A stretch of DNA of 20,537 bases from positions 1 through 20,537 of the IMG/VR virus record IMGVR_UViG_3300020473_000853; one strand, written 5' to 3'. Within the stretch, counting starts at the first letter, position 1. Each line of letters begins with the position of its first letter. The position numbers were made by a program, and so were the translations under genes. The notes under the pieces are model-generated. The model had not been told where the DNA came from. It saw nothing but the letters and a program-made list of their open reading frames with translations, and ran no database searches. Below are positions 1 through 16,807 of this stretch, in pieces. The DNA comes from a virus.

Positions 1-540
1 AGTTCCACTAGGAGTAAAGTCGCTAGTATAATCAACAGCAGTAGCACCTAACTTAATCATTAGGTTCTCCATATTACCTGTAAATGCCTGAGCATTAGCA
101 GCATTAGCACCAATCTTAACTGGCATATTGCCATAATTGGTGTTATCAGTATAAGTTGTGGTTTGCTTAGTACCACCAACGTACATATTTGTAGCACCAC
201 TATTTCTTACGATAGCGATATGAGTCCAAGTATTTGCTGCTAGATTTGCACTTGATGTTATTCTGTCAACATTACCAGTGTTCCAACGAACAGTGTTATT
301 GACCATAATTAAGTAAGCAGAACTTGTATCACCAGTTGAAGTACGGAAATCTAATAATGTTTGATTACCACTAACACCTGTAGCTTTAACCCACAATTCT
401 ATAGTGAAGTTACCATCAGGAATAGATCCATCACCAAATGCAACTTTCTCAGTAGATGGATGTGTTAGATATGCACTACCATTAAATTCAAGAGATCCAG
501 CACCAGCAGCATAATCTAAATTATCTACAGTTACGTTAGT
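1..540 (-). other. LamG/concanavalin A-like domain 2 (runs off window)
   Basis: From residue about 4337: AGSLEFNGSAYL, GNFTIELWVKATG, NQTLLDFRTST, NTWTHIAIVRNSG, ATNMYVGGTK and AFTGNMENLMI. This is a textbook LamG-like strand order and a better match than domain 1. The closing strand is present (F-T-G-N-M-E-N-L). The protein continues beyond position 1. Confidence 0.85.
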
Positions 541-3500
541 ATTAACTAAAAGACTATTAGTAATGTATTCTCCATCAGAGAATGCACCAGTTGGGTTCTT
601 AGTATAGATCCACTTATTACCTGCATTAGAACCGATTATTTCAGCAGTATTTCCAGATGTTATACCTTTAACAATTTCACCGAAGACAAAGAATCCACCA
701 GAAGACTTATCTTTATAAGCGTGCTTAACAGACTTAAGTGTCTCAGAATCACTGAATGAATATGGAGGTGCAACTCTAGTTACATTTGAAATAGACCAAG
801 GATAAGTTCCAGGTGTAGCACCAGTTGGATCCTGTAATGAATCAGTGATAATTGCAAAGTAGTTAGTAATAGCAGATGTTACGTTTACACAAGCAGTTGT
901 AGAAGGATTTGCCATCACAGCAGTAGATGGTTCAGTCTTCGTTGTTCCAGACTGGAATGCTGCTCTAGTACCAGGTGATGCAGTAGTACCTAGGGCATTA
1001 ATCAGAATATTCGCTAGGGTGGTTATTGTTGCAGCAGGTGTCTGACAAGCAGGAGATGCACCATCAGCAGTGATAGTACCATCAGTAAATTGTGTCCAAC
1101 CGTGTGAAGTATCTTGCTTGGCATATACAACATTTCTCTGAACATCGATTGCTATATCTCTTGCCTTAGTAAAGGCATTTACCATAGTATCGATATCACC
1201 AGTTACAGTACCATAATGAAGAATACGATCTGTTGCTTCCCAAACAAAGTCATTACCACCAACAGCAGCGTTATATGCAATTGCTTCAATAACATCAACT
1301 ATATCTGACAAGCAATGTGAATCACCACCAGATACGTTATATCCTGGATTCTGCTGCTTGGCATAATATAATGCTTCGTGAGCGATATACCACTTATTAG
1401 CAAGTAATAGTGCTCTAGCATCAGCGTGACTATTATCAGTTACACTATACTCACCAGTAACAGTTAAGTCTCTCCACTGCTGTAATGTAGTAAATGAAGT
1501 ATCGATATCCTCCATTCTTATGCACTGGATTGCTAAGTCTCGTGCTTTATTCATTGCCCAAACTGTTTGAGCTTCAGCACCATCAACGTGATATACAGTG
1601 TTACCTTGAACGTAAGTATTAGCAATATCCCAAACTTCAGAGTTACCATCAAACTCTAACTGCCAAGCCATCATATTGATAGCATCTACAATATCATCTT
1701 CACAATCTGAGTTTCTACCAGTATTGATTTGGAAGGAGGGGTAGAAATCTAACATTGCTCCCACGGCTTCTTCAGCGATAAATCTCGCATTACGCTGCAA
1801 AGCGTTAGAAGCATCATTAAGACGTACATCGTGAGTCCTTCTTAGAGATGAATTACCAAAGTAAATCTTCTTAAGACGAATGTCAGAACCAGCAGCAAAG
1901 TCGGTACCAGTTAAATTGTCATAACGTATCTCTTGGTTACGAACTCTCTCAAAGTCTAGGAAGTCTTGGTTATTAGCTGTCTCAGGATCATATATTTCAA
2001 CAGGGTTAATAACTGTTTCTGATATGTTATCAAGTATCTTATTAGGGAAGGTAATAGAAGGTACCCTCTGGAATACTAATGCAAAGAAGGAAGAACTAGG
2101 TGATAGGTCTACCCTATCAATAATCTGATTGGATATATCATCCTGATAAGGTGCAATACTTGTAATAGTTGCTGCAATCTTAGAACGTGCAGAATAAATG
2201 ATATCATTGAACTTGATATTAAATTCACCAGTCTCGTACTTAGCAGTACCAGAAGTACGTGAAAGAACTAGTTCATTAGTAATAACACCATCTTGTAAGT
2301 TATTCTCTTCAACAATAGCAAAATTACCAGCCAAATTAGTGATCCTCTCACCTTGTTCAAAGATAGTCTTAGAAGTTGTAGGGGAAACATCACTTAAAGT
2401 AGAATTGAATCCAGTCTGTGAACCCATTATACTTTCATTAATTTGGAAGGTTCCTTGTATGTCAATAACGTCAATATAATCAACACCTGAATCTATGCAA
2501 GTTGCAGTTGCTTCTGATACCAAACCACGAACAGTATTACCTAAAAGTGGGAAAATACCACCAATAGAACTGAATGTCATTCTAGTGATTACTTTCTGAG
2601 CATAAACTGCTTCACGGAACTTAATTCTAGAAGGTGCTTTAGGTGCTTCAGTAAAGACAACAGAAGGTCCAGCTGTTGAGAATGCAGTACCTGGTGACTG
2701 TGCAACACCATTAATCAAGATAAACATCTGATTATCTGCTGCAGTTATGGAACTACCTTCTACATTAAGAGGGAATTGGGTTTTAATTCCATCAAAGTCC
2801 TCAGAGATGTTATCAATCTTCTTAACGATAGAGGTTAAGATTTCCTCTGAGTTAGTTAATCTCTTCTGTCTGAACAGTACCTCAGTATTATTAAACTGAG
2901 TATAAATGGGTTGTGCGTTAGCAAATGATGTAATTTGATTAATATTAGTGAAACTATTGATATTAACTTCTTTAATAAGGTCAGATACAACCTTTCTTCC
3001 AGAAATATCCTTACCACCAGTGATTGCTAGTTCACCGAAGAGGTTGAAACCAACAGGGTGGTTTGTTTCTAATACAGGCTTTCTCCACTGGTTAATAGGT
3101 GTTTGAGACTTAATAACGTATGAGAAGTTCTGATAGAAGTAAGAATCTTGTATTTTTTGAACAATTTCAGATGGTTTACCAACGTCATCAATAAACTGAC
3201 CAGGAGTATTGGTTAGAGAAGCAATATTCAGTGTACCAGTAGCGATTGATAGGTTATCAATCAAACCAGATGCACGAGAAACTTCACCAGTTACACGCTC
3301 TCCAGATCTCCAAACACCATCATAGTTCTCAAGTTTAAGGATTCTAGGTCCAATCTGCCAACCTTCGTTAGTAGAAACATAACCAGTAGCAGATGCGAGT
3401 TCAAGTGAAGTACCCTGATAAACAAGTTCACCTGCAAGGAATCTAGAAGTTTCAACAATAGCAGTTGCTTGACCACCAAATACTTCAGTTAGAAGTACCT

Positions 3501-6500
3501 GTCTACCTTCACCTTGTGTCAAGAATGTAATGTAAGAACCAGATTCAGCATCTAACTTGGTTAGAGAGATACGTAATTGGTCTGATTCAAGTGAATTTGC
3601 TTCACCAGCAATAGCATAGTATGTCTGATTTGAGTTCAAGCTAACCAAACCTGCAGAACTAGGTTTTGGAAGAATACCTACGGTTGATCCTAGGTCTTCT
3701 GCTCTTAACTGAACTTCAGCACCAGTTGTGATACCGTGTGGGAAGTTGAACTGTAAATAACCTAAGTCAACGTTAACAACGTAGTTAAATTCTGATTTAA
3801 GTGTAACTGTTGGTTCAGAACTGTATCCTGAGCCAGGATCCTTAATAATAACCTCAGAAAGACGATTATTCTTAACAATTGCTTCTGCCTTAGCACCTGA
3901 TCCACCACCACCTTCAATTACAACAGCAGGAACTGAAGTATATCCAGCACCTGGGTCAGTTATCTTAATTTGTGCTAGTAAAGCGGTATTAAACAGCTGA
4001 AGGTTCACAGGGAAAGTTATTTCAGGTCTCAGTGTATAATCGTGTGAGTAACCGAAACCAAACTCATTATTCTTAAGTTTCTTGATCTTACCAATAGATT
4101 TACCTTGTAAGAACACAGAAGCACCTGATCCTTCATCAGGAATAACAACTTCAAGAATTCCACCAGAACCAGCAAGTAAAGAACCAAGAATACCTGGAAT
4201 TGCATCAATATCGATAGATGCAGTCTTATAACCTTTACCTGCAGATGTAAGGACAACATCAGTGATAACACCTTCAAAGTCTCCATCATCCTGAACTGTA
4301 ATGTTACAAGTAGCACCTTCACCATCTCCATCAATAGGAACGTTATAGTAAACACCATTTACGTACTCAGTACCACCATTAAGGATACGAACCTTCTCAA
4401 TCTCTCTATTAGAAGCAATATCAGTAACAATTGGTAGTCTCTGATAGAATCCACCTGCATTTACAAGTTTGATATCAGATATTGGACCAATTGCCTTAAT
4501 TGAGGTTGTTGAGTAAGAAGAACGAGCATTGCCAAATTCATTATTACCAACAGGAGCATTTGTCTTTTCAGGTTCATTTAATAGTCTAAAGGCGAATTTT
4601 TTACCAGCATCGGTTACAGAAGTAACTCTGAATGTTCCATCATAAGGTGATTTAATAACGTCAATGAAGGATCCTTCTCCAACTGGTGAATCTGCACCTG
4701 TTCTAGATGGGTCAAAGTAATATGAAATATTAGTAACATCATCATTAATGACGAATTTAACCAACGGAGTTGGTGAATCATCATCAGTAAATCCAGGTGT
4801 ACCCTCTCTAATAATGTTAATGAATGGATATTCCAGTTTATACTGGTTATCTCTAGAGAATGATAGGAAGTATCCAAGGTTAGAGTCATCATCAAGGTCA
4901 AATATGTACTGATGACCTCTAACAAAGAGGAATTTAGGATGTTTTGCGTAGATATTAACGTTAGATACTGAATTTCCACTACCAGCAAAGGTTGGATCCT
5001 GTACAGCAGTACCTCTCATACGGAATGAGAAATCTCTTGAATTAAAGACCTCTTCTACGAAGAACGAACCATTATAGTCATTTGTAGCAAAGTTCTCTGT
5101 AAATATGATCTCATTTTCTACAAAATTGTGTCTACTAGAAGCAGAACAGTAAACAATGTCAGTATTTACTAATGCACCACTAGGAATTACGTCCTTATTA
5201 AGTTGTGCAATCAAGGATATCTTCTTAACACCAGTCAAACCAGTGAATGTTGCTATCTTACCAGTTTCATCAACAGCAAACTGAAGGTTGACAGCATCAG
5301 CGTCAATAGTATCTCCTTTAATAAATGATGAATCTTGATATATCTCTTCAATCTTAATAGTATAATCTTCTGGAGAGAATGGTTTCCAAGATGCAAAAGC
5401 ACTCATTGTAGAACCATTATATGAAGTATCTGCAAGATCTATCTCATATATGCCAGATGCAGAAAGATATGCCCAAGAAACAGCACCATCAGATACAATA
5501 CCAGTTGTATGTGTAGGTGGAATAGTACCAGATGTACCAGGAGAGGTACACTGATATAGCTTCTTATCGTTATAAACTATGTCTTCTGTAGCATATACAA
5601 AGTTAGTTGCCCAAATTGGATCGGTTTTTTGCTCTGTAAAGTTCCATTCAAGGTCATTTACATCATTAGCAGTTGATTTTAATAGTTTTGAAGTGTCAAA
5701 ATTACCTGCAATCTTACCAATCTTGCAAGAATTGGTTCCAGATTCAACAATTGTTCCATATGCAGATACAACATCGTTACCACCAATTACAGAATACTGT
5801 TGTAATATTGCTCCTTTAGTGAAAGTAGCGTCCTGATTGAAGTTAATTGTCTTAACAAGGTCAATTAGAGCATATTTTGCATCTCTAAAGTAGAATTTTG
5901 GTACAACAGTCGTTGTAAGAAGCAGTTTCTTACCACCAGGAGTCGGAACAGTAGCAGTTCTATTACCAAAATTCTGATCTGTTGATGTTACGGTGAATAT
6001 ACCAGGTTGATGTGTAGAAACAACATCACCATAATCAAGAATCTGAATACCTGCAGGACCAAGAACCCAAGGATTCATTGCTACGTTCTGGGTATTAAAC
6101 GTATAACTGCTCTCAGAGGCGATATTTAAGGTATGTCCTGTCTCAACATCGTTAAGATTGAATGATCCTAATGCTGTCTTGTCCTTATCAATCTTATAAA
6201 CAAATCCTTGTGCAATACTATTAGTACCAGTAACTAAAGCAGAAGTAAATGTATCATCATACTTAGCAGTAGGTGAGACAACTAGGTTATCAATCCATCC
6301 AATCCAGTTATTTGTTGCGTTAGGAGTTGAATTAGATCCAAGTGTTACATCTTTAAGGTTGATATCAACTGTTGTACTTGTAAGTACCTGTGCTTCAATA
6401 CCATTGACATATATACGATACTTGTAATCACCAACACCTACACGTTCTTTAACTAAAGCAACGTGAATAAACTCCTCGTTATTAAAGATTGCTAGGTAGT

Positions 6501-9500
6501 TTGCAGCAGTAGAGAATGTTGTAGTACCAGTTATATCAATAAATGTCTTACCATAGTTGGGACTTGTCTGATCTGCATCAAGACCAGCTCTAACTGTATT
6601 ACCTATATCATCAGTTACAGTGAAGAATTCTGGTTTTGTATTAGCAGCAGTATACTGAGTAGTTGAAAGTGCCCAAAATGCTTCTACAGTATAGCTTGTA
6701 GCAACATCTGATCCATAAAGCATCGTCATAGAATTAGATGCATCTAGTTTTACTGAAGAAGCACCATCATACTTCTTAGTATCATCAATTACAGCATTAC
6801 CAGTTGCATACCACTGTTTGTTAGTTCCAGTAGCAAGAGTGTCATTATATGTGTCATCAGCAAGGTTATCAGCAGTATTCCAGTTAAATATCGCTAATTG
6901 ATCTGCTTCTACTTTATTACCAACAACAATTGTGTCACCAGAACTGTCGTTAGATACAGCAATTGCTTTAAATCCAATACCATCAGTCTCAGTTGCAGTT
7001 GAAGCAGTAATTACTGTACCTGTATTCCAACCAATCTTAAGAGTAGTGGATTCAACTTGATTAAATGTTCTTTCTACAGAACAAGATACATCAACATTAC
7101 CAAAGATATCAAACTCTACACCACCATTATGAACAGCATTATAGGTTCCAGTAGGAACAAATATTCTACTTTGCTCAGCTTCTGTAAAGTCACCATCATC
7201 AAACTTGGTGTATAAGACACCATAATCCTTACCATTAGTATCTTCTGCTGTAGCAGTTACATATACAGCACCATATTCATCAATGGTAAATGTTGGGTTC
7301 TTAAACTTATAACTGGCATTAGTGATCTTTTTAGACCATACAACCTCAATAGTTGCAGTATCATAATAAGTTTCACCAAGTATAATGTCAGATGTATTAT
7401 CAGGTTCAGATATACCACAGAATAGGAAGGTATCCTTAGATTTCCACTTAATTTGATGTAAATGCTCACTAACTTCTGAAGAAGCAATCTTACGCTTCTC
7501 CATCATAGATCCATCAAGATCTAATAATGCAACCCACATATCATCTGGTTGCAATGAGTTAGCATCGGTATAACCACCGATCATCGTTCTACCGTCTTGA
7601 TCTAATGAAATGGTAGTTGCATAATCTCTTCTTGTAGCACCAGAGATACCAGCAATATCACGTTGCCACTGAAGAATACCATCAGGGTTATTATTACCAT
7701 CAAATCCTGAAGTATACTTAGCAACAATAATATCTGGGTTATGAGTAATATTTGTGATGTTAGTAACTGTCTCACCAATTACGTAGATATTGTGAGGATT
7801 ACTATTCTCAACATATAAAGACTTCCATCTTAATGATTTTGGACCAGCAGGTACTGTAGGTACTAGAGTTCTCTGCCAAAGTAAGCGACCATCACTATTA
7901 AACTTAGCAAGAATACCACAAGTATCACCATCAGTAAGATTTCTTTCAGCTGCAACGTAGATCGTACGATCTTCAGCAACTTTAACGTCATTTATAGAAA
8001 CAGTACCAGTTGCTTCTTTCAAGAATGATAAGAAGTAATTTGCCTTCTTATATCTCTGTGGATGTGATACACGAATCTTAGGTGGGTTAGTTACGTCATA
8101 TCCAGAACCAGAGTTGATTATATTTGCTTTCTTAACGGCACCTGCCTCAGTTCTGTCTAAAGTTAACTTGAAATCTTGTCCAGTTGTTGAAATGAGTTCA
8201 TATGATGGGGGTAGTTCTGATGAATAACCAATACCTTCCTGAGTAATGTTTAATTGCTCAACACCAGCAATAACCTTAACTTTAAGAGTTTTATTAGTGT
8301 CATCAAGAACAGGGGTACTCTTAACGATAATTTCATCATTAACACGTAATTCGTGTTCTTCAGCAGTTGTAATCTGTCCGTAAGGTACGTCATTAGTCAT
8401 ATAAGACGAATAACCTGCTATATCAAGACCTTTAACTGAATTAACCTTAGCAGATGCACCAAATCCTTGTGTGTCTGTATTATCAAAATATAGTTTGTCA
8501 CCAACCTTATAAGAGATACCTGGATTCTCAACAACAAATCCGTCAACCTGAGCATCCTCAAACTTGGTAGTAGTCTCAATATCAATATCCACCTCAGATC
8601 TTGTAGAGACTCTAGGGTAGTAATCAAATAATTGTAATACGGGTTCTTCAGCAATATTGATTGGTGTAGTATCTTCAAGATTATTGATTACACCATCTCT
8701 ATTAGTATCTTCAATTTCAAAGATAAGTTCCTCACCAAGTTCAGTTACAAGGATATCAGTGTCTTGGTTTGGTTGACGTTCAATGTCAATATCAACATCT
8801 TCGTAAGGATCACGGAAACGAACAACATCATCAGGAATATTTGTCTGTACAGCATCCTGACTGTAGTTCCACTCATCTGCCTTAGAATATAACTGAGGAC
8901 CAGCAATATATGGGAATACTGGATTACCTGCATCAGATGCGTCAATTGAGATAAAGTATGCGTATACACCTTCAGGGAATTGAGGTGTCTTACAGAAACG
9001 ACCATTATACTGGTCTAGATCACCATATTGGAAAGTATACTCAAAATCTTCAATAAATGAACCTGCAGGATAGTCACTTAGTAAAGGACCATCTGAACGA
9101 ACTGGATTAGGGTTGGTTGCTTGGTCATATATGAGTATTGGCTTGATACGGTAAGAAGATCTAATACGACGTATACCAGAAGACTGGTCAGTAGCATCTA
9201 TGTAACCATAAGGACCATAAATGGGGTTACCATCAAATGCCCATCCGAGGATTGGTGAGTGTTGCCATCCTGTAGATAATTCTTGTAATTGTTGTGTTGC
9301 TTGGTTCTTAAAGACATTATCACCCAAAACATAACGCAACTGCTTAGGATCTGATAAATGTGCGTATTCACCACCATATTGAGTGTTATATCCTGCAAAT
9401 ACGTAACCACGTGCTGTATCGAAAGATTGACCTAACTCATCTTGTAGGTTTCTTGTCCACTCAAATACATTAGCGGTAAACTCTGCCATTTCACCAACTG

Positions 9501-12500
9501 CTTCTAACCTTACAGTTGTTAGACCAGTAGTATATCCAATACCTCTGTTAATAACAGAAACACCAATAACCTTACCTCTATCCTCTCCAACAGTACCAAT
9601 AGTTGCTTTTGCAACAGCACCATAACCATCACCATTGATTACAATCTCAGGAGCAGTGGTATATCCCTTACCTGCAGCAATGATAGCAATAGAAACTATA
9701 CGACCGTTAATAATGATTGGTTGTGCAACAGCACCTTCACCAGAATTCAGTTTGATATTAGGTGAAGAAGTATAAGCAGATCCTGCAGTATCTACCCTTA
9801 CAGATTGAATTGCACCTCTTACAGCAGCAGTTGCGGTAGCACCACTACCATTTCCACCTGAAATAGACACATCAGGTTGTGAGGTGTATCCTTGACCTGG
9901 GTTTTCAACCAGAACCTTAGAAACTATACCGTTAGTAATAACAGCGGTAGCAGTAGCACCGAATCCACCACCACCCACGATAGAAACAAGAGGACTAGAA
10001 GTATAACCACTACCTCCCGCAGATACATCAATTTCACTTAATTGTCCGTTAACAACAACACTTGCGGTAGCACCTGTACCGCCACCACCTGTAATTTCAA
10101 TAAGAGGAGGGTTAGCAGCGTCATATCCTTGACCAACATTAACAATATTAATTCCAGTTACACCACCATACTTAATTCTACTCTCTGACTTATAAGACCA
10201 AGCAGATACACCATTAACCCACGCACCAATAGGACCAAAGTTAGTATCTTCCCGTTTAGAGATCGTATTGATAACTCTAGGAATACGGATCAGTTTACGC
10301 TGGTTACCTGGAAGTAGTGCAGATCCTACAAAAGGACCAACTTCATAGTTTGGTATACCAGATGATGCAATATATGAATACTGATTATTAAAGAACGTAT
10401 TCTGTACGTTTGTAGTAAAATCTCTAATTGCAATGCTAATTCCTTCTTCTGGAGACTTACCTTTATTCAAGTCAACAGATAAGAGGATATTACCTTGAGG
10501 TGAAGAATCTGCAGGTGCAGGAATATTATACTCAAAGATAAAATCACTAATACGTGATGTTACTAGGAACGTACCGTTGAACACAGTTGGGTTTGCACCG
10601 TAGATAGTAACAGTGTCACCAACAAGAAGACCGTGCTTATTAGAGCAAGTTACGGTTGCAGTCTGATTATTAAGACCACCAGGTACAACACCATCAACAT
10701 TAATCAGTTTCTTGACGTTATATAACCAAGAAGTGATACGTTGATCCACAGAAGTAGATCCAAGAGATGCAACGTTTAATTTGTCACCAGGTAAGTAGTA
10801 TGAACCAGTATCTGTCAATACGGTGGATTTTGCGTCTGCAATACCCAAAACACGCATTTTGATCTCAGTAGGAAGACCACGATCGACATATACAAATATT
10901 TGTGAATGAATTATAGTACCTGCATCCCAATCTTCTACAACACCGTTCTCAGAACGTGTACATTCAATGAACTGGTTAAGAGTCTTCTCCTTGTACTGAA
11001 CCTCCTCATCGTCATTAATAAGGATTGTACCGTTTCTTTCAGGCCAACCAATAGTAGAGTCAACAGTAATAATGGATTCTGTAGTACTAAGTTCCTCAAC
11101 CAATGTGGTTTTATAAGGAATTGTAAATGAACCTTGTAGAGTTTCCTCAGATATAGCAAGTTCATATACAGTTCCTACACCAGTATTGATAGCAATAACG
11201 TTCTCAATCAGTGCAGATGCACCTTTAACGTTGATATCTACCTGATCTGAGTACTGAATTAGCTGTGCATCTAGTAAATTTGTAGGATCTCCAGTTATAA
11301 GTTCCGCACGGAGAACTGTATCTACGTTCCAAGATGCAGCAGATGGCTTAATAACCTCATCTTTTGGATAAGATACGTCCACATTCTCTGAGAACAGCAT
11401 CTTAAAGAGGTACTGTGTAGAGATCTTTGTACCTTTAGATGCGTAGAAATCACTAATAGTTTTGATAATCTGCGGAGCATTTACCTTTTCATAGTCAATT
11501 TCCGCATTAGGAAGGTACTGGTTTACGTATCTTCTGTATAATTCCTTAGCAAAGAGTGTATCTAGGTTAGAAATAGTAGATCCAACCTCGTGAGAAGATT
11601 GAACTGTATCCGCTTCCTTAGAGTAAACTTGATTACCTTTCTGATCAAATGAACTTACAGATGAAACACCACGCTTACAATTAACAAAAGCAGATGGTTG
11701 ATATCCAGATCCACCATTATGGATGGTAAATCCAGTAATTTCACCAAAACCAACGTCACAAGATGCTTCTGGAGCAGGAGGAGCAGCAATAAAGACTTTA
11801 GGTGGTTCTGTATCAGAATATCCAGATCCAAAACTGGTTATATTGATATCAGTGATCTCACCATTGAAGATGGTTGCAACAGCAGTAGCACCAGTTCCAC
11901 CAATAGGTTGATCAGCAATATCCTTCCTATTATCAACAATATACACAGATGGAGCATCAGTGTAACCTGCTCCACCAGTTAATAGTTCAATATTAGTTAC
12001 TCTACCACCAGTTACACTTACATCGAGGATTTGAGCACCTACAGGATCGATAATCTTTGCCCTAGGTGTTGTTACATATCCTTGTCCACCTGATACAACA
12101 GTAATTCCATTAACACGTCCATATTCATCAATAGTAGCAACAACATTAGCTGTAATAGCATTATCACCAGTTGGAGGATCCAAATAGACTAATGGAGGTG
12201 TAGTGTAACCAGAACCAGAAGTAACAACACTTATAGACCCTTCTTGGATAGATCCTGTGTGAAGTGTTGGTTGACTAATGGTTGCACCACCAGGATTAAC
12301 AAAACTGATAGATGGAATCTTATCGTAACCACTTCCAGAACTGTCTACAATGAGTTCTGAGACCCCTTCGATAGTATCACTAACAATTGCCCTAATTTGA
12401 GCAGTCTTGCCTTCAGGATCCACTGGAGGGTCAACTACAACGATTGGAGGGTTATTTGCAGAGTAACCTTGTCCTGAAAATAGTAATCTAGTGTCTTTAA

Positions 12501-13551
12501 TACCATTTACTAATGCTTCAGCAGTAGCATTAGCTCCTGGACCTTTGGTAGACGCAATAGTAATCTTTGGAGCAAAACTTAAACGATATCCACTACCACC
12601 AGTCTTAACAATGACCTTATCTACAACACCTTGCTCAATATCCGCAATAGCACTAGCACCAGCACCAAATTCAGGTGCTATCATCTCAATAGATCTAATA
12701 TTAATCTGAGATCCTTGTGCAACGTCATTCTTAAAGATTAACTTATCTTCAAAGATAGTAAAATCTTCATAAGGACGCTTTTCTACTCTGTTTACAACAA
12801 CTATTGATGAAACAGTTGATAATGGGGTATATGAAACGTTATTGTTAGTTAAATTAAATTCTTTAGCATCTACAGTAACACTAATAGTGTCTATAGAACG
12901 TACTGGAATGCTTGTGTAACCAATAAGGTACCGAATAGTATTAATTGCACCTGTAAGTGCTCCTGTAGGGGGAGCAGGGGGTGTCTCCAGACGTATCTTA
13001 TCACCTTCGATAAAATAGTCGATATTTGGGAATAAAAACTCGTTATTTACAACAACTAAGAGATGATCAGCAGTTTGAGGTGAAACTGGCTTACCTAAGA
13101 GTCTAAGATCAAATAAAGTTTGACTATTATCAAATTGTGAAGATATTGGTTCAAATTCTTGTATTTTACGATCAAATTCTGCCTTATTAACACCAGGAGT
13201 GAATACAATGTCGGGAGAATGAGTAACAGACTCGTAATAAATTACCTCATTATCAATTTGTACCGTACCATCTTTCTCTAAGAAATAATTAACGTTCTCA
13301 GCAACAATATCCTTTTGAGTAGGATCAACCTTCTCCAACACAGCAGATTGTGAAGATAGGAAATTAGGATCAAACTCTCCAGAACCAATATCAGTATATC
13401 TTAAGATATTATTCAGTATGTCATACGGACGACCTGATTTCTCTTGAGATCTGTAGTATTCTGAAAGAAGATTGACAAATTGTTCGTTATCTTCTCGGAT
13501 GAATGCAGGTATCTGGTCCTGCACCCTATTTGAGACGGTAATAGCCTTCAT
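1..13551 (-). CDS. Giant multidomain virion structural protein (3' end outside window)
   Basis: One reading frame of 4,517 codons starts at ATG 13551-13549 and is still open at position 1. I read every triplet of this frame and met no stop. An in-frame TAA at 13560-13558 fixes the start (MKAITVSNRVQ). No strong Shine-Dalgarno is visible. It begins 27 nt after gp6. By residue: N-terminal phage-structural motif (about 8-35); GxGY array A (318-625); KGT/YPKDEV module (667-741); YHYH-type domain split by GxGY array B (1075-1556); EF-hand-like loop (1615-1626); more GxGY units (about 1670-1830); beta-propeller-like stretch (1850-2220); LamG-like domain (2253-2430); tail-fibre-type Cys/Thr/Gly module (2658-2702); GxGY array C (3018-3255); tandem helical repeat (3913-4150); second LamG-like domain (4337 onward). 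No signal peptide or membrane segment is seen. Inferred role: peripheral baseplate or host-recognition protein, possibly assembled near gp6. A single polypeptide is certain from the frame; the exact role is not. Confidence 0.93.
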   Translation of the reverse strand, partial: MKAITVSNRVQDQIPAFIREDNEQFVNLLSEYYRSQEKSGRPYDILNNILRYTDIGSGEFDPNFLSSQSAVLEKVDPTQKDIVAENVNYFLEKDGTVQIDNEVIYYESVTHSPDIVFTPGVNKAEFDRKIQEFEPISSQFDNSQTLFDLRLLGKPVSPQTADHLLVVVNNEFLFPNIDYFIEGDKIRLETPPAPPTGALTGAINTIRYLIGYTSIPVRSIDTISVTVDAKEFNLTNNNVSYTPLSTVSSIVVVNRVEKRPYEDFTIFEDKLIFKNDVAQGSQINIRSIEMIAPEFGAGASAIADIEQGVVDKVIVKTGGSGYRLSFAPKITIASTKGPGANATAEALVNGIKDTRLLFSGQGYSANNPPIVVVDPPVDPEGKTAQIRAIVSDTIEGVSELIVDSSGSGYDKIPSISFVNPGGATISQPTLHTGSIQEGSISVVTSGSGYTTPPLVYLDPPTGDNAITANVVATIDEYGRVNGITVVSGGQGYVTTPRAKIIDPVGAQILDVSVTGGRVTNIELLTGGAGYTDAPSVYIVDNRKDIADQPIGGTGATAVATIFNGEITDINITSFGSGYSDTEPPKVFIAAPPAPEASCDVGFGEITGFTIHNGGSGYQPSAFVNCKRGVSSVSSFDQKGNQVYSKEADTVQSSHEVGSTISNLDTLFAKELYRRYVNQYLPNAEIDYEKVNAPQIIKTISDFYASKGTKISTQYLFKMLFSENVDVSYPKDEVIKPSAASWNVDTVLRAELITGDPTNLLDAQLIQYSDQVDINVKGASALIENVIAINTGVGTVYELAISEETLQGSFTIPYKTTLVEELSTTESIITVDSTIGWPERNGTILINDDEEVQYKEKTLNQFIECTRSENGVVEDWDAGTIIHSQIFVYVDRGLPTEIKMRVLGIADAKSTVLTDTGSYYLPGDKLNVASLGSTSVDQRITSWLYNVKKLINVDGVVPGGLNNQTATVTCSNKHGLLVGDTVTIYGANPTVFNGTFLVTSRISDFIFEYNIPAPADSSPQGNILLSVDLNKGKSPEEGISIAIRDFTTNVQNTFFNNQYSYIASSGIPNYEVGPFVGSALLPGNQRKLIRIPRVINTISKREDTNFGPIGAWVNGVSAWSYKSESRIKYGGVTGINIVNVGQGYDAANPPLIEITGGGGTGATASVVVNGQLSEIDVSAGGSGYTSSPLVSIVGGGGFGATATAVITNGIVSKVLVENPGQGYTSQPDVSISGGNGSGATATAAVRGAIQSVRVDTAGSAYTSSPNIKLNSGEGAVAQPIIINGRIVSIAIIAAGKGYTTAPEIVINGDGYGAVAKATIGTVGEDRGKVIGVSVINRGIGYTTGLTTVRLEAVGEMAEFTANVFEWTRNLQDELGQSFDTARGYVFAGYNTQYGGEYAHLSDPKQLRYVLGDNVFKNQATQQLQELSTGWQHSPILGWAFDGNPIYGPYGYIDATDQSSGIRRIRSSYRIKPILIYDQATNPNPVRSDGPLLSDYPAGSFIEDFEYTFQYGDLDQYNGRFCKTPQFPEGVYAYFISIDASDAGNPVFPYIAGPQLYSKADEWNYSQDAVQTNIPDDVVRFRDPYEDVDIDIERQPNQDTDILVTELGEELIFEIEDTNRDGVINNLEDTTPINIAEEPVLQLFDYYPRVSTRSEVDIDIETTTKFEDAQVDGFVVENPGISYKVGDKLYFDNTDTQGFGASAKVNSVKGLDIAGYSSYMTNDVPYGQITTAEEHELRVNDEIIVKSTPVLDDTNKTLKVKVIAGVEQLNITQEGIGYSSELPPSYELISTTGQDFKLTLDRTEAGAVKKANIINSGSGYDVTNPPKIRVSHPQRYKKANYFLSFLKEATGTVSINDVKVAEDRTIYVAAERNLTDGDTCGILAKFNSDGRLLWQRTLVPTVPAGPKSLRWKSLYVENSNPHNIYVIGETVTNITNITHNPDIIVAKYTSGFDGNNNPDGILQWQRDIAGISGATRRDYATTISLDQDGRTMIGGYTDANSLQPDDMWVALLDLDGSMMEKRKIASSEVSEHLHQIKWKSKDTFLFCGISEPDNTSDIILGETYYDTATIEVVWSKKITNASYKFKNPTFTIDEYGAVYVTATAEDTNGKDYGVLYTKFDDGDFTEAEQSRIFVPTGTYNAVHNGGVEFDIFGNVDVSCSVERTFNQVESTTLKIGWNTGTVITASTATETDGIGFKAIAVSNDSSGDTIVVGNKVEADQLAIFNWNTADNLADDTYNDTLATGTNKQWYATGNAVIDDTKKYDGASSVKLDASNSMTMLYGSDVATSYTVEAFWALSTTQYTAANTKPEFFTVTDDIGNTVRAGLDADQTSPNYGKTFIDITGTTTFSTAANYLAIFNNEEFIHVALVKERVGVGDYKYRIYVNGIEAQVLTSTTVDINLKDVTLGSNSTPNATNNWIGWIDNLVVSPTAKYDDTFTSALVTGTNSIAQGFVYKIDKDKTALGSFNLNDVETGHTLNIASESSYTFNTQNVAMNPWVLGPAGIQILDYGDVVSTHQPGIFTVTSTDQNFGNRTATVPTPGGKKLLLTTTVVPKFYFRDAKYALIDLVKTINFNQDATFTKGAILQQYSVIGGNDVVSAYGTIVESGTNSCKIGKIAGNFDTSKLLKSTANDVNDLEWNFTEQKTDPIWATNFVYATEDIVYNDKKLYQCTSPGTSGTIPPTHTTGIVSDGAVSWAYLSASGIYEIDLADTSYNGSTMSAFASWKPFSPEDYTIKIEEIYQDSSFIKGDTIDADAVNLQFAVDETGKIATFTGLTGVKKISLIAQLNKDVIPSGALVNTDIVYCSASSRHNFVENEIIFTENFATNDYNGSFFVEEVFNSRDFSFRMRGTAVQDPTFAGSGNSVSNVNIYAKHPKFLFVRGHQYIFDLDDDSNLGYFLSFSRDNQYKLEYPFINIIREGTPGFTDDDSPTPLVKFVINDDVTNISYYFDPSRTGADSPVGEGSFIDVIKSPYDGTFRVTSVTDAGKKFAFRLLNEPEKTNAPVGNNEFGNARSSYSTTSIKAIGPISDIKLVNAGGFYQRLPIVTDIASNREIEKVRILNGGTEYVNGVYYNVPIDGDGEGATCNITVQDDGDFEGVITDVVLTSAGKGYKTASIDIDAIPGILGSLLAGSGGILEVVIPDEGSGASVFLQGKSIGKIKKLKNNEFGFGYSHDYTLRPEITFPVNLQLFNTALLAQIKITDPGAGYTSVPAVVIEGGGGSGAKAEAIVKNNRLSEVIIKDPGSGYSSEPTVTLKSEFNYVVNVDLGYLQFNFPHGITTGAEVQLRAEDLGSTVGILPKPSSAGLVSLNSNQTYYAIAGEANSLESDQLRISLTKLDAESGSYITFLTQGEGRQVLLTEVFGGQATAIVETSRFLAGELVYQGTSLELASATGYVSTNEGWQIGPRILKLENYDGVWRSGERVTGEVSRASGLIDNLSIATGTLNIASLTNTPGQFIDDVGKPSEIVQKIQDSYFYQNFSYVIKSQTPINQWRKPVLETNHPVGFNLFGELAITGGKDISGRKVVSDLIKEVNINSFTNINQITSFANAQPIYTQFNNTEVLFRQKRLTNSEEILTSIVKKIDNISEDFDGIKTQFPLNVEGSSITAADNQMFILINGVAQSPGTAFSTAGPSVVFTEAPKAPSRIKFREAVYAQKVITRMTFSSIGGIFPLLGNTVRGLVSEATATCIDSGVDYIDVIDIQGTFQINESIMGSQTGFNSTLSDVSPTTSKTIFEQGERITNLAGNFAIVEENNLQDGVITNELVLSRTSGTAKYETGEFNIKFNDIIYSARSKIAATITSIAPYQDDISNQIIDRVDLSPSSSFFALVFQRVPSITFPNKILDNISETVINPVEIYDPETANNQDFLDFERVRNQEIRYDNLTGTDFAAGSDIRLKKIYFGNSSLRRTHDVRLNDASNALQRNARFIAEEAVGAMLDFYPSFQINTGRNSDCEDDIVDAINMMAWQLEFDGNSEVWDIANTYVQGNTVYHVDGAEAQTVWAMNKARDLAIQCIRMEDIDTSFTTLQQWRDLTVTGEYSVTDNSHADARALLLANKWYIAHEALYYAKQQNPGYNVSGGDSHCLSDIVDVIEAIAYNAAVGGNDFVWEATDRILHYGTVTGDIDTMVNAFTKARDIAIDVQRNVVYAKQDTSHGWTQFTDGTITADGASPACQTPAATITTLANILINALGTTASPGTRAAFQSGTTKTEPSTAVMANPSTTACVNVTSAITNYFAIITDSLQDPTGATPGTYPWSISNVTRVAPPYSFSDSETLKSVKHAYKDKSSGGFFVFGEIVKGITSGNTAEIIGSNAGNKWIYTKNPTGAFSDGEYITNSLLVNTNVTVDNLDYAAGAGSLEFNGSAYLTHPSTEKVAFGDGSIPDGNFTIELWVKATGVSGNQTLLDFRTSTGDTSSAYLIMVNNTVRWNTGNVDRITSSANLAANTWTHIAIVRNSGATNMYVGGTKQTTTYTDNTNYGNMPVKIGANAANAQAFTGNMENLMIKLGATAVDYTSDFTPSGT
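1118..1815 (-). repeat. Tandem helical repeat, two copies, about 130-residue pitch
   Basis: Copy 1 (1815-1501) and copy 2 (1425-1118) share the same order of motifs. Copy 1 has ALQRNARFIAEEAV, SDCEDDIVDAI, NSEVWDIA and KARDLAI. Copy 2 has ALLLANKWYIAHEAL, SHCLSDIVDVI, NDFVWEAT and KARDIAI. Each keeps a Cys two residues before the D-I-V-D helix. The segment after copy 2 (PACQTPAATITTLANILINAL) looks like the tail of the same long repeat. I recall similar repeats in cyanophage virion proteins. It is the only mainly helical part of the giant protein. Confidence 0.8.
3790..4500 (-). repeat. GxGY beta-repeat array C (about 5 units)
   Basis: Residues about 3018-3255 include NAGGFYQRLP, NGGTEYVNG, SAGKGYKTA, DPGAGYTSVP and DPGSGYSSEP. 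The last two units are canonical (VVIEGGGGSGAKAEAIV between them), the first three diverged. Just upstream are HPKFLFVRGHQYIFDLDDDS and SYYFDPSRTGADSP, conserved-looking phage structural segments that I cannot name. Confidence 0.75.
5445..5580 (-). other. Tail-fibre-type 'YxCTxxGTxG' module
   Basis: Residues about 2658-2702 contain KLYQCTSPGTSGTIPPTHTT followed by GIVSDGAVSWAYL. The pattern Y-x-C-T, G-T-x-G, P-T-H-T, then V-x-DG-x-V-x-W-x-Y is one I recognise from many phage tail fibres and spikes. It is a small beta module; ligand unknown. Confidence 0.6.
6270..6795 (-). other. LamG/concanavalin A-like domain 1
   Basis: Residues about 2253-2430 include DGASSVKLDASNSMTM, SYTVEAFWALST, EEFIHVALVKE, YRIYVNGIEA and GWIDNLVVSPTAKY. 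These follow the LamG order: strand, F-T-x-E-x-W strand, H-V-A strand, Y-V-N-G hairpin, and closing I-D-x-L strand. Such jelly-rolls commonly bind glycans in surface and tail proteins, so a receptor role is plausible. Confidence 0.75.
6900..8005 (-). other. Beta-propeller-like (SBBP/PQQ-type) repeat region
   Basis: Residues about 1850-2220 hold repeated blade-like segments. Examples are TIYVAAERN...GILAKFNSDGRLLWQRTL, NIYVIGET...IIVAKYTSG...GILQWQRDI, RTMIGGYTD...MWVALLDLDG, TFLFCGIS...IEVVWSKKI and AVYVTATAE...GVLYTKF. The alternation of a Y/V-x-G/A strand with an AKF..DG..LWQR strand is typical of beta-propeller repeats of the SBBP kind. I count five or six blades. Propellers in tail proteins often serve binding; that use here is inferred. 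Confidence 0.65.
8060..8545 (-). repeat. GxGY units D (2-3 isolated copies)
   Basis: Anchors are GIGYSSELPP and GSGYDVTNPP, with a weaker NPGISYKVGD copy upstream. They join the EF-hand-like linker to the propeller-like stretch. They are the same unit type as arrays A-C but without the Gly-rich turn. Confidence 0.65.
8674..8709 (-). other. EF-hand/dockerin-like calcium loop
   Basis: Residues 1615-1626 read DTNRDGVINNLE. This fits the 12-residue EF-hand loop exactly: Asp1, Asn3, Asp5, Gly6, Ile8, Asn9 and Glu12. It lies in an acidic linker just after the YHYH-type domain. Only one loop is seen and no flanking helices were established, so calcium binding is inferred. Confidence 0.55.
8885..10330 (-). 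other. Degenerate YHYH-type domain, split by a GxGY array
   Basis: The first part (nt about 10330-10150) has LLPGNQRKLIRIPR and FGPIGAWVNGVSAW, matching the opening of YHYH proteins (IPR...GAIGVFVNGV). The second part (nt about 9482-8885) has HSPILGWAFDGNPIYGPYGY, RIRSSYRI, a Tyr-Asn-Gly-Arg element, TPQFPEGVYAYF and PVFPYIAGP, which are the family's strongest motifs. The namesake YHYH stretch appears only as GEYAHLSDP, so its His pair is not kept. YHYH domains recur in marine phage and bacterial surface proteins; their activity is not established. Array B sits between the two parts. Confidence 0.8.
9485..10140 (-). repeat. GxGY beta-repeat array B (6 units, regular 37-40 residue pitch)
   Basis: The anchors are GQGYDAANPP, GSGYTSSP, GQGYTSQP, GSAYTSSP, GKGYTTAP and GIGYTTGL. 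The first three units are the most regular: GxGY, Pro, a VSI-type strand, GGGG or GGNG, GATAT/GATAS, then a strand with NG and an I/V-rich strand. This is the cleanest array in the protein and the best place to derive a profile. It lies inside the YHYH-type domain. Confidence 0.9.
11329..13500 (-). other. N-terminal phage structural module of the giant protein, interrupted by repeats
   Basis: Residues about 14-33 (IPAFIREDNEQFVNLLSEYY) match a motif common at the start of myovirus structural proteins. Residues about 667-741 contain FAKELYRRYVNQYLP, IIKTISDFYASKGTK, LFKMLFSENVDVSYPKDEV and IKPSAASW, which match the segment that normally follows it closely in such proteins. Here the two are separated by roughly 630 residues that include GxGY array A. 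Function is unknown; in related phages this module is found in virion proteins. The family recognition is from memory. Confidence 0.6.
11680..12600 (-). repeat. GxGY beta-repeat array A (about 8 degenerate units)
   Basis: Residues about 318-625 contain eight anchors in order: GSGYRLSFAP, GQGYSANNPP, GSGYDKIP, GSGYTTPP, GQGYVTTP, GAGYTDAP, GSGYSDTEPP and GSGYQPSA. Each is followed by a short beta-like stretch (for example VYLDPP), a variable Gly/Ala segment and an I/V-rich strand leading to the next anchor. Units are about 35-50 residues and clearly diverged, so this is an old protein-level repeat rather than a recent DNA duplication. It is probably a stacked beta structure; I know no confirmed fold for it. 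Confidence 0.85.
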
Positions 13552-13578: not shown

Positions 13579-15663
13579 TTAGAAACAAGAATTAAATTCT
13601 GGAATCTCAAAGACGGTAGTTGGGTAATCAATAATATTTATTGAGGTTCCATCGAAGTTAATAGCGTTGAAATCGAACGGATCGAAGGTTGGAACGTTAG
13701 TTCCATCAATTGTGTAGTCGATGGTTTGTACAGTTGGGTTAAAGATCGTAGGATCTAGACCTGTACCAATGTTAATATTGCCAGAAGCAGGGATAACTGT
13801 AACAGGAACCCTGTTAGTACCATCAGGGGTACTTGCAATGTCAACAGGTCCAACACAGACCTGTCCACTCTTATAATCAACGGTTCCTACATTCTTTTTA
13901 AGAGTAACTTCAGCCTCATCGACTTTAGTTACCATAATTAGATTTCCGTAACCGTCATCTCTTATATTTACAGGTAATAGTGCTGTAGTATCATTCGTAA
14001 GTAAACTTGTTGATGATATTTGATTAGCATTAGCACCACCCTGTATACTTAAAAGTCCCTCCGTATATCCTGTGGAATAGAAGGTACCTGTTTTCACTGA
14101 GGAATATTTTGGTATACAAGTCCCATCTCCAGCACCATCGGTGCCTTTTGCTCCACCCGAAAGGTCATTGGGATTTGCGATTTCATTATTAAAGTCAATA
14201 CACTGTGTAAATGTTTGACCAAAATTGAAGTTCTCGATGTTCATACCCAAAGACATATGGGTAATGTTGCCACTGATCGAAGGATCAGAGGAATCTATCA
14301 TCGATTGATAAGCACTGAGGTCAATGCGACCATTGAATCTAGTAGATTCTGCTTGAGAATTGTATTGATCGACAGCTCCCAGAACTTTAGACGCAACTTC
14401 ATTATTTGAGAGTGTAGTTTTATTACCGTCAAAGAACGCCCAAGTTTTTGGTCTAATGTATAAGGTAATTGGATCGACAATAACAGGTTCGATTGCTGCA
14501 ATCGAGTATTTAAGCAGATTATTCTTGATTCTTTTTTTGGTTGTTGTATTAAGTAGGGCACCTGATTTAGTTCTAATGGATATGTAAACTTTTCCGTAAA
14601 TTGGTGGTGATAAACGTTCTCCACCGTAAGCAGTAACGGATTTTGCTTGTGGGTATACCTTTTTGGTAATAAATTCGTAATCAGATTCAGTTACTGCTCT
14701 GTTCTGACTGTTAAACGCCCTAGGAGCGTTAAATTTAATACTTAGGGTAGTTTCTACGTCTTCACCATCTTGAGCACCATCTATGGTCACAAGAGAGATA
14801 TTAGACGAAGATACGAGACGACTTTCTGAGTCTATCACACGACCGATGAAACTAAATTGCTTACATCCGTTAGCAGCAGTTCCTTCAGTACGTACATACT
14901 TTAATTTAATGACTTCACCTGCAATTAATTGACGACAGATAACTCCATCACCAAAAACCACGTTATAACGTTGATCATCGGTCTCCTCAAGGAAATATCC
15001 ACGAGTAGTACCATCAACATCAACAATATTCTGAACCAAATTATATGTATCAATCTCTTCAGACTGTGCGTTGGGTGAAATTGAAACAGATAAAAGATCT
15101 GTATCCACCTGATCAGAAGGAATTAAGTAATCTCGCTTCTTAACATCATCAACAACGTACTGATACGTTAAAGTATTACCTTGATTGATAACTACCTTGC
15201 TAAAAGTAGCAATTCCAGTGGATTGATCAACTGTTGCCTGTAAAGCTGATGGTAAAGTAAATGTATATCCTTGTCCACTTACAGCAGATACAAAAACATC
15301 ACCAGCTTGTAAAGTTACTGTGCCAGGATAGGTTGTACCAGATCCAACAGTTTCTGTTTGTACAGCAAATCGCACACAAGCTTTTGGTGCTTTAACTGAT
15401 CTAGGTGTGTAATTTAATTGCTTTGCAATCTTTACAACATTATCTCTAATAGTTGCAGACTCAAGAAACGCCTCATTCATTGCCATATTAGCGTTGAATG
15501 CAGCGTAGTATGTGTTATATGATAAAACGTCAAGCAAATATGATGCAGCAGATCCGTCAAAATCATAATCTGTGAACTCATCTCTAGTTCTCAGGTATGA
15601 TCTAATAGATTCACGTATCTCTGAAAAGTCTAAAGACGTTAAATTTGATGGTATTGCTGCCAT
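13579..15663 (-). CDS. gp6: Baseplate wedge protein gp6 (J-like)
   Basis: At 694 residues it is close to T4 gp6 (660). The N-terminus (SLDFSEIRESIRSYLRTRDE, then DYDFDGSAASYLLDVLSYNTYY) and the following AMNEAFLESATIRDNVVKIAKQLNYTPRS are characteristic of T4-like gp6. Residues about 230-420 carry the Baseplate_J-like core (FGDGVICRQL, FNAPRAFNSQNRAVTESDYE, VYPQAKSVTAYGGE). gp6 dimerises to link wedges into the baseplate ring. The ATG at 15663-15661 overlaps the gp25 stop by one base (TAATG), with GGAGA seven nt upstream, so translation is probably coupled. The last 60 or so residues are Asn/Asp/Phe-rich and end in a Cys. Confidence 0.95.
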   Translation of the reverse strand: MAAIPSNLTSLDFSEIRESIRSYLRTRDEFTDYDFDGSAASYLLDVLSYNTYYAAFNANMAMNEAFLESATIRDNVVKIAKQLNYTPRSVKAPKACVRFAVQTETVGSGTTYPGTVTLQAGDVFVSAVSGQGYTFTLPSALQATVDQSTGIATFSKVVINQGNTLTYQYVVDDVKKRDYLIPSDQVDTDLLSVSISPNAQSEEIDTYNLVQNIVDVDGTTRGYFLEETDDQRYNVVFGDGVICRQLIAGEVIKLKYVRTEGTAANGCKQFSFIGRVIDSESRLVSSSNISLVTIDGAQDGEDVETTLSIKFNAPRAFNSQNRAVTESDYEFITKKVYPQAKSVTAYGGERLSPPIYGKVYISIRTKSGALLNTTTKKRIKNNLLKYSIAAIEPVIVDPITLYIRPKTWAFFDGNKTTLSNNEVASKVLGAVDQYNSQAESTRFNGRIDLSAYQSMIDSSDPSISGNITHMSLGMNIENFNFGQTFTQCIDFNNEIANPNDLSGGAKGTDGAGDGTCIPKYSSVKTGTFYSTGYTEGLLSIQGGANANQISSTSLLTNDTTALLPVNIRDDGYGNLIMVTKVDEAEVTLKKNVGTVDYKSGQVCVGPVDIASTPDGTNRVPVTVIPASGNINIGTGLDPTIFNPTVQTIDYTIDGTNVPTFDPFDFNAINFDGTSINIIDYPTTVFEIPEFNSCF

Positions 15664-16070
15664 TATGTTCTCTCCAACAAGAAGTCTACAGTTTGGGTAA
15701 GAGTTTCACCGATAATAGTGTAATCAACCTCAACTTCAAGATTATTGGTATCATCTACCTCTAACCTAACTTCATTAATAACAACACGTGGTTCAAATCG
15801 TGCTACTACGTTTAAGATCTCTTCTTTCAATTCCTCAGACATAAAGACATCGAAATTTTCGAAAAGCATCTGACGTAACCTTGATCCTTTAGTTGGTTGG
15901 AAAGGTCTCTCTCCAAACCCAGTCAGGACAAGGTTTTTGATGGACTGCTTAATGGCGTTCTCATTCTTAACCACAGAAAAATCCTCAGTATTGGGGTTGT
16001 TTTTCATCCCTATACTGAGGTCACGGAACTGTCTTGAAAGGTTCCTTTCTGCTTTAAACCGATACGCCAT
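15663..16070 (-). CDS. gp25: Baseplate wedge protein gp25 (lysozyme-like fold)
   Basis: At 135 residues it matches T4 gp25 (132). Residues about 25-90 include NPNTEDFSVVKNENAIKQSI, then GERPFQPTKGSRLRQMLFEN, the signature of the gp25/TssE family. The EPR motif (ARFEPRVVI, residues about 90-98) is the element known to contact the sheath/wedge core. gp25 joins the wedge to gp53/gp6 and the sheath initiation site. The start ATG 16070-16068 lies inside a 12-bp palindrome, 27 nt downstream of a CTAAATA motif. No clear Shine-Dalgarno is visible. It ends in TAATG with gp6. Confidence 0.96.
   Translation of the reverse strand: MAYRFKAERNLSRQFRDLSIGMKNNPNTEDFSVVKNENAIKQSIKNLVLTGFGERPFQPTKGSRLRQMLFENFDVFMSEELKEEILNVVARFEPRVVINEVRLEVDDTNNLEVEVDYTIIGETLTQTVDFLLERT
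15671..15675 (-). promoter_or_regulatory. Ribosome binding site of gp6
   Basis: GGAGA on the minus strand, 7 nt before the gp6 ATG and inside the last codons of gp25. It is the clearest Shine-Dalgarno in the window and supports the chosen gp6 start. Confidence 0.75.
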
Positions 16071-16104: not shown

Positions 16105-16257
16105 TCACTTTCCTTGTCCTCGGTACTTCTTCTTCGCTTTATTGCGTGAAGATGCACTGTATTTTGTATGCATACTAGACCCTTGACGAGTCTTTTTGGG
16201 TCTTGGTTCAACTATGGTCGAAGAACCCCAAGCACCTGATTTGGTTTTTACTGCCAT
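16105..16257 (-). CDS. Small basic conserved phage protein (50 aa)
   Basis: ATG 16257-16255 to TGA 16107-16105. The protein starts MAVKTKSGAWGSSTIVEP, continues RPKKTRQGSSMHTKYSASS and ends RNKAKKKYRGQGK. It is rich in Lys/Arg, Gly and Ser, with no predicted hydrophobic core. I recall similar PKKTRQG...KKYRGQG proteins in this same place in cyanophage genomes, though I cannot name a function. It follows the PAAR gene by 16 nt and has only weak SD potential. The C-terminal basic patch suggests nucleic-acid or polyanion contact; that is a guess. Confidence 0.82.
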   Translation of the reverse strand: MAVKTKSGAWGSSTIVEPRPKKTRQGSSMHTKYSASSRNKAKKKYRGQGK

Positions 16258-16273: not shown

Positions 16274-16807
16274 CTATGATGCTAACACATTTGGACTACC
16301 AAATGCAACCACTGATGAACAAGGCCAACTTTTACCTGGTTTTCCATAACCAAGAGGATCCATAATACGTCCTATTGGGATCTTGAATGCTAGAACTTGC
16401 TTTGTAGTAGCATAAAGGAGTCTCCAGTGTCCTTTACCCATCATATCCTCAGTTGTAATAAGACTGCAAACAGTTGGTGTAGGAACAATACAAGTTGCTT
16501 TACCACAGGGACAAAGATAATTGATAATATTGGTTGTTGGCGATAAATGTGGTATAAATTGATCACCAAAGATCATAATTGGTAAACCATTTACTAGAAC
16601 CGTTGCCCTCATTGGGTTTAAAGCAGTAAGTGGGACTAGTGGCATAGGAGGCCACATACAAGTCTTCTCCTTAACAACAATAGGCAGTTGAATCGGTGGA
16701 GTACCGCAAGACTGTGTACTATGTATTGTTGAAGGAATAGGCACACCGTGCCCTGAACAGGGTAGTCCATTATGGTGTGCAACTGGTCGTAAGAGTCCTA
16801 ATGCCAT
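16274..16807 (-). CDS. PAAR-like baseplate spike-tip protein
   Basis: 177 residues. The N-terminus has HHNGLPCSGHGVPIPSTIHS and a following QSCGTPP, typical of PAAR-like proteins; residues about 70-85 (RATVLVNGLPIMIFGDQ) resemble the family's VNG-x-P-x-x-x-x-GD element. There are eight Cys, including LCPCGKATC, and several His, giving many candidate metal ligands. PAAR proteins cap the trimeric spike of contractile tails with a metal-bound tip; T4 gp5.4 is the phage example (97 residues), so this one is about 80 residues longer. Its ATG overlaps the stop of the upstream gene (TAATG), supporting a spike-complex partnership. The extra C-terminal part (GHWRLLYATTKQVLAF onward) is unassigned. Confidence 0.8.
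   Translation of the reverse strand: MALGLLRPVAHHNGLPCSGHGVPIPSTIHSTQSCGTPPIQLPIVVKEKTCMWPPMPLVPLTALNPMRATVLVNGLPIMIFGDQFIPHLSPTTNIINYLCPCGKATCIVPTPTVCSLITTEDMMGKGHWRLLYATTKQVLAFKIPIGRIMDPLGYGKPGKSWPCSSVVAFGSPNVLAS

Follow-up and report, generated by a model that had tools for sequence, protein, structure and literature searches.

In phage T4, the gene directly after gene 6 encodes gp7, a baseplate wedge chain of 1,032 aa, and one published view is that cyanophages do without it: the accessible text of one study has gp7 absent from the phages that it covers (cyanophages and pelagiphages) and replaced by VrlC (PMC7029224), and that of another, which calls gp7 very divergent, counts it in the non-cyanophage core (PMC3037559). 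A cyanophage family of very large proteins is already known as phrog_701 (cyanophage virion structural protein; 6,136 profile positions), its members so far named ‘structural’, ‘hypothetical’ or ‘wedge initiator’ in databases. One of them, CPXG_00128 of P-RSM6 (HQ634193, 8,573 aa), stands in GenBank as ‘hypothetical protein’, so the size class is already catalogued; in the literature searched, the giant protein is not the main subject of any paper. PHROG files phrog_701 under ‘head and packaging’, though its genes adjoin gp6 and gp25.

The window analysed here is the whole 20,537-base stretch of DNA, ending where its IMG/VR record ends, and the genes described lie on its minus strand. A PAAR-like protein of 177 aa (16274..16807; phrog_281, E 5.8e-19), for which T4 offers gp5.4, directly upstream of gp6 and annotated with the same PAAR-like name, is followed by the baseplate wedge subunits gp25 (15663..16070; 135 aa; PF04965, E 5.3e-14) and gp6 (13579..15663; 694 aa; PF21379, E 1.1e-16; phrog_219), the latter 57.4% identical to the S-SZBM1 protein. 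The giant protein (1..13551, residues 1–4517 of ~8,570) comes next. The preliminary description, made from the letters alone, had set it in the place of T4 gene 7, directly after gp6, and gene order bears this out; the order gp25–gp6–giant recurs in S-WAM1, P-TIM40, S-SZBM1 and P-RSM6, where it is annotated or readable from the record notes.

The surroundings of these genes hold several smaller observations. A possible basic ORF of 50 codons (16105–16257, minus strand, starting MAVKTKSGAW), picked out by eye, lies between the PAAR-like gene and gp25, a gap in which P-TIM40 and S-SZBM1 also have small annotated ORFs. Upstream, a protein of 1,209–1,242 aa (16807–20535, minus strand), which may extend beyond the record at its 5′ end, has one stretch (109–227) like phrog_773 ‘major head protein’ and another like a baseplate wedge family; proteins of 1,231–1,430 aa upstream of gp25 in P-TIM40, S-WAM1, S-SZBM1 and P-RSM6 are likened to it by place and size. 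The T4-type late promoter TATAAATA has zero exact matches in the window, and with one mismatch it has 31, against a shuffle mean of 50.7.

The giant frame begins with an ATG at 13551 and runs to position 1 through 4,517 codons without a stop, open at the window edge, as the preliminary description had stated and retranslation confirms. From the base composition of the stretch, 6.8% of codons (~308 in a frame of this length) would be stops, the probability of none being ~10^-139; a chance open frame is thereby ruled out. The five other frames of the stretch hold 187–668 stops, and GC by codon position in the giant frame is 0.49/0.42/0.22. The frame stays open across all sequence that the window shares with five further contigs (G001, G003, G006, G008 and G010). 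Compared codon by codon between the window and G001, G003, G006 and G010, pN/pS is 0.18–0.25 over the whole shared part, so that the entire shared stretch is under selection as protein; in 300-codon blocks it ranges from 0.05 to 0.57, the top values falling in blocks with few synonymous changes.

Extension past position 1, proposed earlier as the way to the stop codon, has been achieved through relatives: the last 400 residues, used as query, found 11 loci in IMG/VR, and the whole records of relatives were then searched. The frame continues, and four contigs contain the entire gene, of 8,572 (G006), 8,566 (G010), 8,596 (G003) and 8,566 aa (G008); in each of them its TAA overlaps the following gene's ATG. 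In another relative, G034, the frame is open over 8,864 codons. Computed mass is ~927–930 kDa and pI ~4.8 (G003, G006 and G010), and the expectation of a protein much longer than gp7 is more than borne out, complete relatives exceeding T4 gp7 more than 8 times. The window frame is thus best read as the first half of a tail baseplate protein of ~8,570–8,600 aa from a marine cyanophage, running off the record with its C-terminal part beyond.

Synonymous divergence is patchy along the giant gene when the window is compared with G001, G003 and G006: same-residue codons that differ make up from 1% per 150-codon block to as much as 24%, 23% and 37%, respectively, with a variance 8–12 times the permuted mean that, for each of these contigs, is higher than in any of 2,000 permutations. 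The pattern looks like recombination inside the gene, as far as sequence comparison can indicate.

The window protein is a new member of phrog_701: its residues 1–3755, the best-matching stretch, align to profile positions 1–3741 with E=0, and the C-terminal half of G006 reaches profile position 6129. No NCBIfam family matches it at E<=0.1. Among 50,697 phage records, its N-terminal 750 residues find matches in 410 and residues 1518–4517 in 404, with 393 and 390 of these, respectively, carrying Synechococcus, Prochlorococcus or ‘Cyanophage’ in their names; the best places in these records are all below 60% identity. Homologue lengths read from annotation in a hand-picked subset of 17 matching records (15 cyanophages, phiM12 and Cr30) are 767 aa in Cr30, 1,007 in phiM12, 3,032–7,351 in 14 cyanophages and 8,573 in P-RSM6. 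Thirty giant-locus records, hand-chosen from 80 loci, have frames of 1,210–8,864 codons, many cut by contig ends, and therefore give no size distribution.

By BLASTP with 150-residue pieces of G003, a complete relative, 8,461 of its 8,596 residues are covered by the P-RSM6 protein, which lies in the same place after gp25–gp6 and is of the same size class; identity is ~49–59% in the N-terminal 3,800 residues and lower beyond, with many overlapping repeat matches. S-WAM1 (6,737 aa), S-SZBM1 (6,619 aa) and P-TIM40 (7,351 aa), whose giants are labelled ‘baseplate wedge initiator’ or ‘putative structural protein’, share the gene order and are collinear with G003 at ~49–52% identity over the N-terminal 3,700–4,170 residues, but are shorter, and S-WAM1 and S-SZBM1 show no match to the G003 repeat region at ~5,190–7,400.

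A sequence link to T4 gp7 itself lies near the N-terminus. The preliminary description had judged the protein unlike gp7 by eye, and in part this stands: the T4 gp7 Pfam domains PF21427, PF21428 and PF21456 (domains V, VI and helical) have no match in the window protein at E<=0.01, so that the claim made here is of a gp7 counterpart and not of membership in those families. The N-terminal 800 residues do, however, hold a conserved gp7 core segment of 32–35 residues. Profile A1, built from residues 1–800 of 34 giant-type rows (33 of them hand-picked from 80 loci), aligns residues 697–728 (11368..11463) to T4 gp7 729–760 with 38% identity over 32 columns (E 1.3e-4). With short-type relatives added in profile A2 (41 rows: 37 hand-picked from another set of 80 and four giant-type), the match reaches E 1.5e-6 over 35 columns. 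Among 177,635 PDB sequences, the top matches to A2 are the two sequences of gp7 (E 4.8e-5 and 2.5e-4), and the third is at E 0.6; with A1 alone, gp7 (E 0.098) comes second to an unrelated tailspike (E 0.081). A search of the N-terminal 750 residues against gp7 and other wedge proteins had been suggested earlier; by sequence, residues 1–750 used alone give nothing meaningful among solved structures, and it is the residue 1–800 profile that matches T4 gp7; residues 1501–4517 and the C-terminal 2,854 residues of G006 have no such match at E<=0.01.

The specificity of the link has been gauged in several ways. Among 21 T4 proteins (one genome stretch minus gp18, repEA, repEB and short gp17 forms), gp7 scores 45.3 with A1 and 56.1 with A2, the runners-up 22.1 and 20.1. 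Shuffling gp7 100 times gives maxima of 28.0 and 31.0; in the whole T4 genome, translated in six frames, gp7 is the sole match to A2 (E 9.8e-8). Matches to phrog_26741 and phrog_2885, weak or strong, are common to T4 gp7 and the giant. PF23786 (Baseplate_wedge) stays below its 27-bit cutoff in the window protein, at 16.4 bits for the whole and 13.8 bits for the N-terminal 750 residues, and is above it in the relatives from S-SM2, Cr30 and phiM12; the Cr30 (767 aa) and phiM12 (1,007 aa) proteins directly follow an annotated wedge gene.

The gp7-like core appears to be split in the giants. In the AlphaFold2 model of residues 1–800 (pLDDT 77.8), a first half at residues 6–53 (13393..13536), also marked by A2, consists of helices at 6–13, 16–21, 23–37 and 45–53 of low model confidence, and a second at residues 663–720 (11392..11565) of helices at 663–679, 692–706 and 709–720 of moderate to low confidence. 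Between them, residues 67–660 (11572..13353) form a beta-rich stretch, modelled mostly with confidence at 130–620, that carries eight GSGY-type repeats (motifs 319–614). Positions 3–115 of A2, where giant-type rows are absent (they are partly present in the second half), match the giant N-terminus in four isolate homologues with E 5e-15 to 2.8e-13. The two halves of A2 lie ~500 residues apart in the giants of P-RSM6, S-WAM1, S-SZBM1 and P-TIM40 and are contiguous in S-SM2, so that the giants carry an insertion inside the core; on the strength of these profile matches, ~500 of residues 67–660 are a putative insertion splitting it.

Structural comparison adds little to this. A Foldseek search with the 1–800 model returns zero PDB chains at E<=0.001, and its best matches in BFVD are cyanophage proteins or nameless entries. 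The model of a short-type N-terminus (300 residues) is poor (pLDDT 57.6), with fold matches of Z<=7.5, mostly to small beta-barrels, and gp7 is not among the 50 fold-search matches listed for it. For Vibrio phage XM1, the accessible text of a structural report describes the gp7 orthologue gp17 (242 aa) as a core of residues 1–79 and 107–133 around a loop, 80–106, that holds a tail spike (PMC10457771). By that description, a core interrupted by a host-contact insertion, the two proteins are alike, with 27 inserted residues in gp17 against ~500 in the giant; the analogy suggests a role that the giant's core insertion may have.

Beyond the core, the protein is made up of repeats and recognisable modules. 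GSGY-type repeats form two arrays in the window part, the second at residues 1140–1340 (9532..10134; motifs at 1140, 1180, 1219, 1257, 1294 and 1337), with a further group near residues 3105–3240; the region of the second array is also repeated in G003, whose residues ~5,170–7,400 are strongly self-similar and lack a counterpart in S-WAM1 and S-SZBM1. A LamG/concanavalin A-like domain occupies residues 4367–4499 (55..453; PF13385, E 1.2e-18) and a YHYH-family domain residues 1390–1537 (8941..9384; PF14240, E 4e-29, profile positions 68–183 of 193). Domains of the latter kind are described, in the accessible text, as predicted metal-dependent hydrolases with three conserved His and an Asp (PMC7824862). 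Here, a single His (H1431) is invariant in 10 aligned copies and the YHYH tetrapeptide is absent from the whole giant frame in the window, which makes an enzymatic role doubtful as judged from the alignment; the first 67 positions of PF14240 are unmatched, and further triad residues may lie elsewhere. In G006, a Pfam ‘Phycobilisome’ match (38.8 bits against a 22.2-bit cutoff, E 1.1e-9) falls at giant residues ~4,033–4,188 (L016:14847-20000, piece residues 33–188), though none of its stretches clears the threshold individually; it is unlisted for the window protein at E<=0.01. Repeated helical units may have matched by chance here, odd as the match is in a cyanobacterial phage family.

Virion mass spectrometry, named in the preliminary description as a check, exists for one homologue. 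According to the accessible text of that report, S-SZBM1_208 (6,619 aa, 724 kDa) was detected in CsCl-purified virions by 71 peptides at 13.5% coverage, its emPAI of 0.41 lying between those of a gp8-like wedge protein (1.37) and gp6 (0.23) (PMC9146016). A second virion report, in its accessible part, gives 91 unique peptides for S-CREM2 ORF122, ‘baseplate wedge protein, intermediate’ (PMC10665884), which by its coordinates has 1,937 aa, follows inner wedge proteins and is a homologue by place and label alone. As far as these accounts go, both sets of peptides are compatible with an intact or a cut chain, and neither shows intactness.

Downstream of the S-SZBM1 giant lie a YHYH protein (207), a gp9/gp10-like protein (206), a second protein labelled ‘baseplate wedge initiator’ (SSZBM1_205; L207:7260-9107) and a gp8-like protein (204); the position of the last means that the T4 order 6–7–8 is kept, with extra genes between. 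SSZBM1_205, also detected in virions in the accessible data (PMC9146016), is one of a set of second A2-matching proteins, frames of 614–637 aa, found in the giant-bearing genomes of S-SZBM1, S-WAM1, P-TIM40 and P-RSM6 and matching at positions 68–125 only. It shares beta-repeat families with the giant, and the common label may mislead annotation.

The giant is probably the cyanophage counterpart of T4 gp7, a baseplate wedge chain enlarged ~8-fold, and the likeliest composition is a small gp7 core, helical by low-confidence models and split by a beta-rich insertion of ~500 residues, then ~7,800 residues made up of repeats and domains of lectin-like type. An unlikely alternative, but the one with most to be said for it, is a host-recognition side-fibre that merely adjoins gp6, the gp7 role being taken by VrlC or by the 615-aa ‘wedge initiator’ downstream. 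The published replacement of gp7 by VrlC speaks for it, as do the link of LamG and YHYH domains to host recognition in the accessible text of the same study (PMC7029224), the 32–35 columns to which the gp7 match extends and the label that SSZBM1_205 shares with the giant. Against this, the gp7-core positions of A2 (193–224) match the giant frame alone in four giant-bearing genomes and gp7 alone in T4, and have no match in the four proteins of the wedge region that follow the giant in S-SZBM1; SSZBM1_205 matches A2 at 86–125 only, outside those positions, and has zero Pfam matches. The proteins that follow the wedge gene in Cr30 and phiM12, moreover, match PF23786 above its cutoff.

Cutting of a whole translated giant into several virion proteins by a protease seems very improbable: the 13.5% peptide coverage in S-SZBM1 is compatible with more than one chain in the accessible data (PMC9146016), but the accessible virion literature shows no cleavage. 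An assembly origin of the long frame, through a false join or missed frameshift, had been named from the start as what would undo the claim, and the window record is indeed a metagenomic fragment; uninterrupted frames in the same place in five contigs and in the isolates P-RSM6, P-TIM40, S-WAM1 and S-SZBM1, together with the pN/pS values, rule this out for practical purposes, and no sign of either defect appears across the contig comparisons.

If the giant is a gp7 counterpart, its two helical pieces would pack with two copies of gp6 into the ‘core bundle’ of the wedge, and six giant copies would encircle the baseplate. Both the core insertion and the long C-terminal region may then project outwards, forming an integral skirt or fibre in contact with sugars on the host surface, and host contact passed through the wedge could trigger contraction of the sheath; docking and receptor binding are both conjectural. 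A bolder form of the proposal, in which one chain of ~0.93 MDa per wedge replaces most of the separate outer parts of the T4 baseplate and six copies make the first host contact, is decidedly unlikely, since the separate gp8-like and gp9/gp10-like proteins downstream in S-SZBM1 make any such takeover partial at most.

More interesting than the open frame as such are the link to gp7, the splitting of the core and the range of sizes. As far as profile similarity can tell, the link to gp7 argues against the view, in the accessible text of PMC7029224, of cyanophages without gp7, and it offers a place to look for how marine T4-like cyanophages build the host-facing side of the tail. The gp7 proteins of S-SM2 (4,156 aa) and P-SSM2 (5,195 aa) resemble the giants in that they carry a YHYH domain and, close to the N-terminus, a gp7-like core; they are without the ~500-residue core insertion, so that their core segment falls near residue 200, compared with 700 in the giants. 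From 767–1,032 aa in Cr30, phiM12 and T4, the wedge protein reaches ~8,600 aa in P-RSM6 and the relatives of the window protein, a growth that appears to have come by insertion into the core and extension of the C-terminus. T4 gp7, ~8 times smaller, shares with the giant its place after gp6 and the core segment at 729–760.
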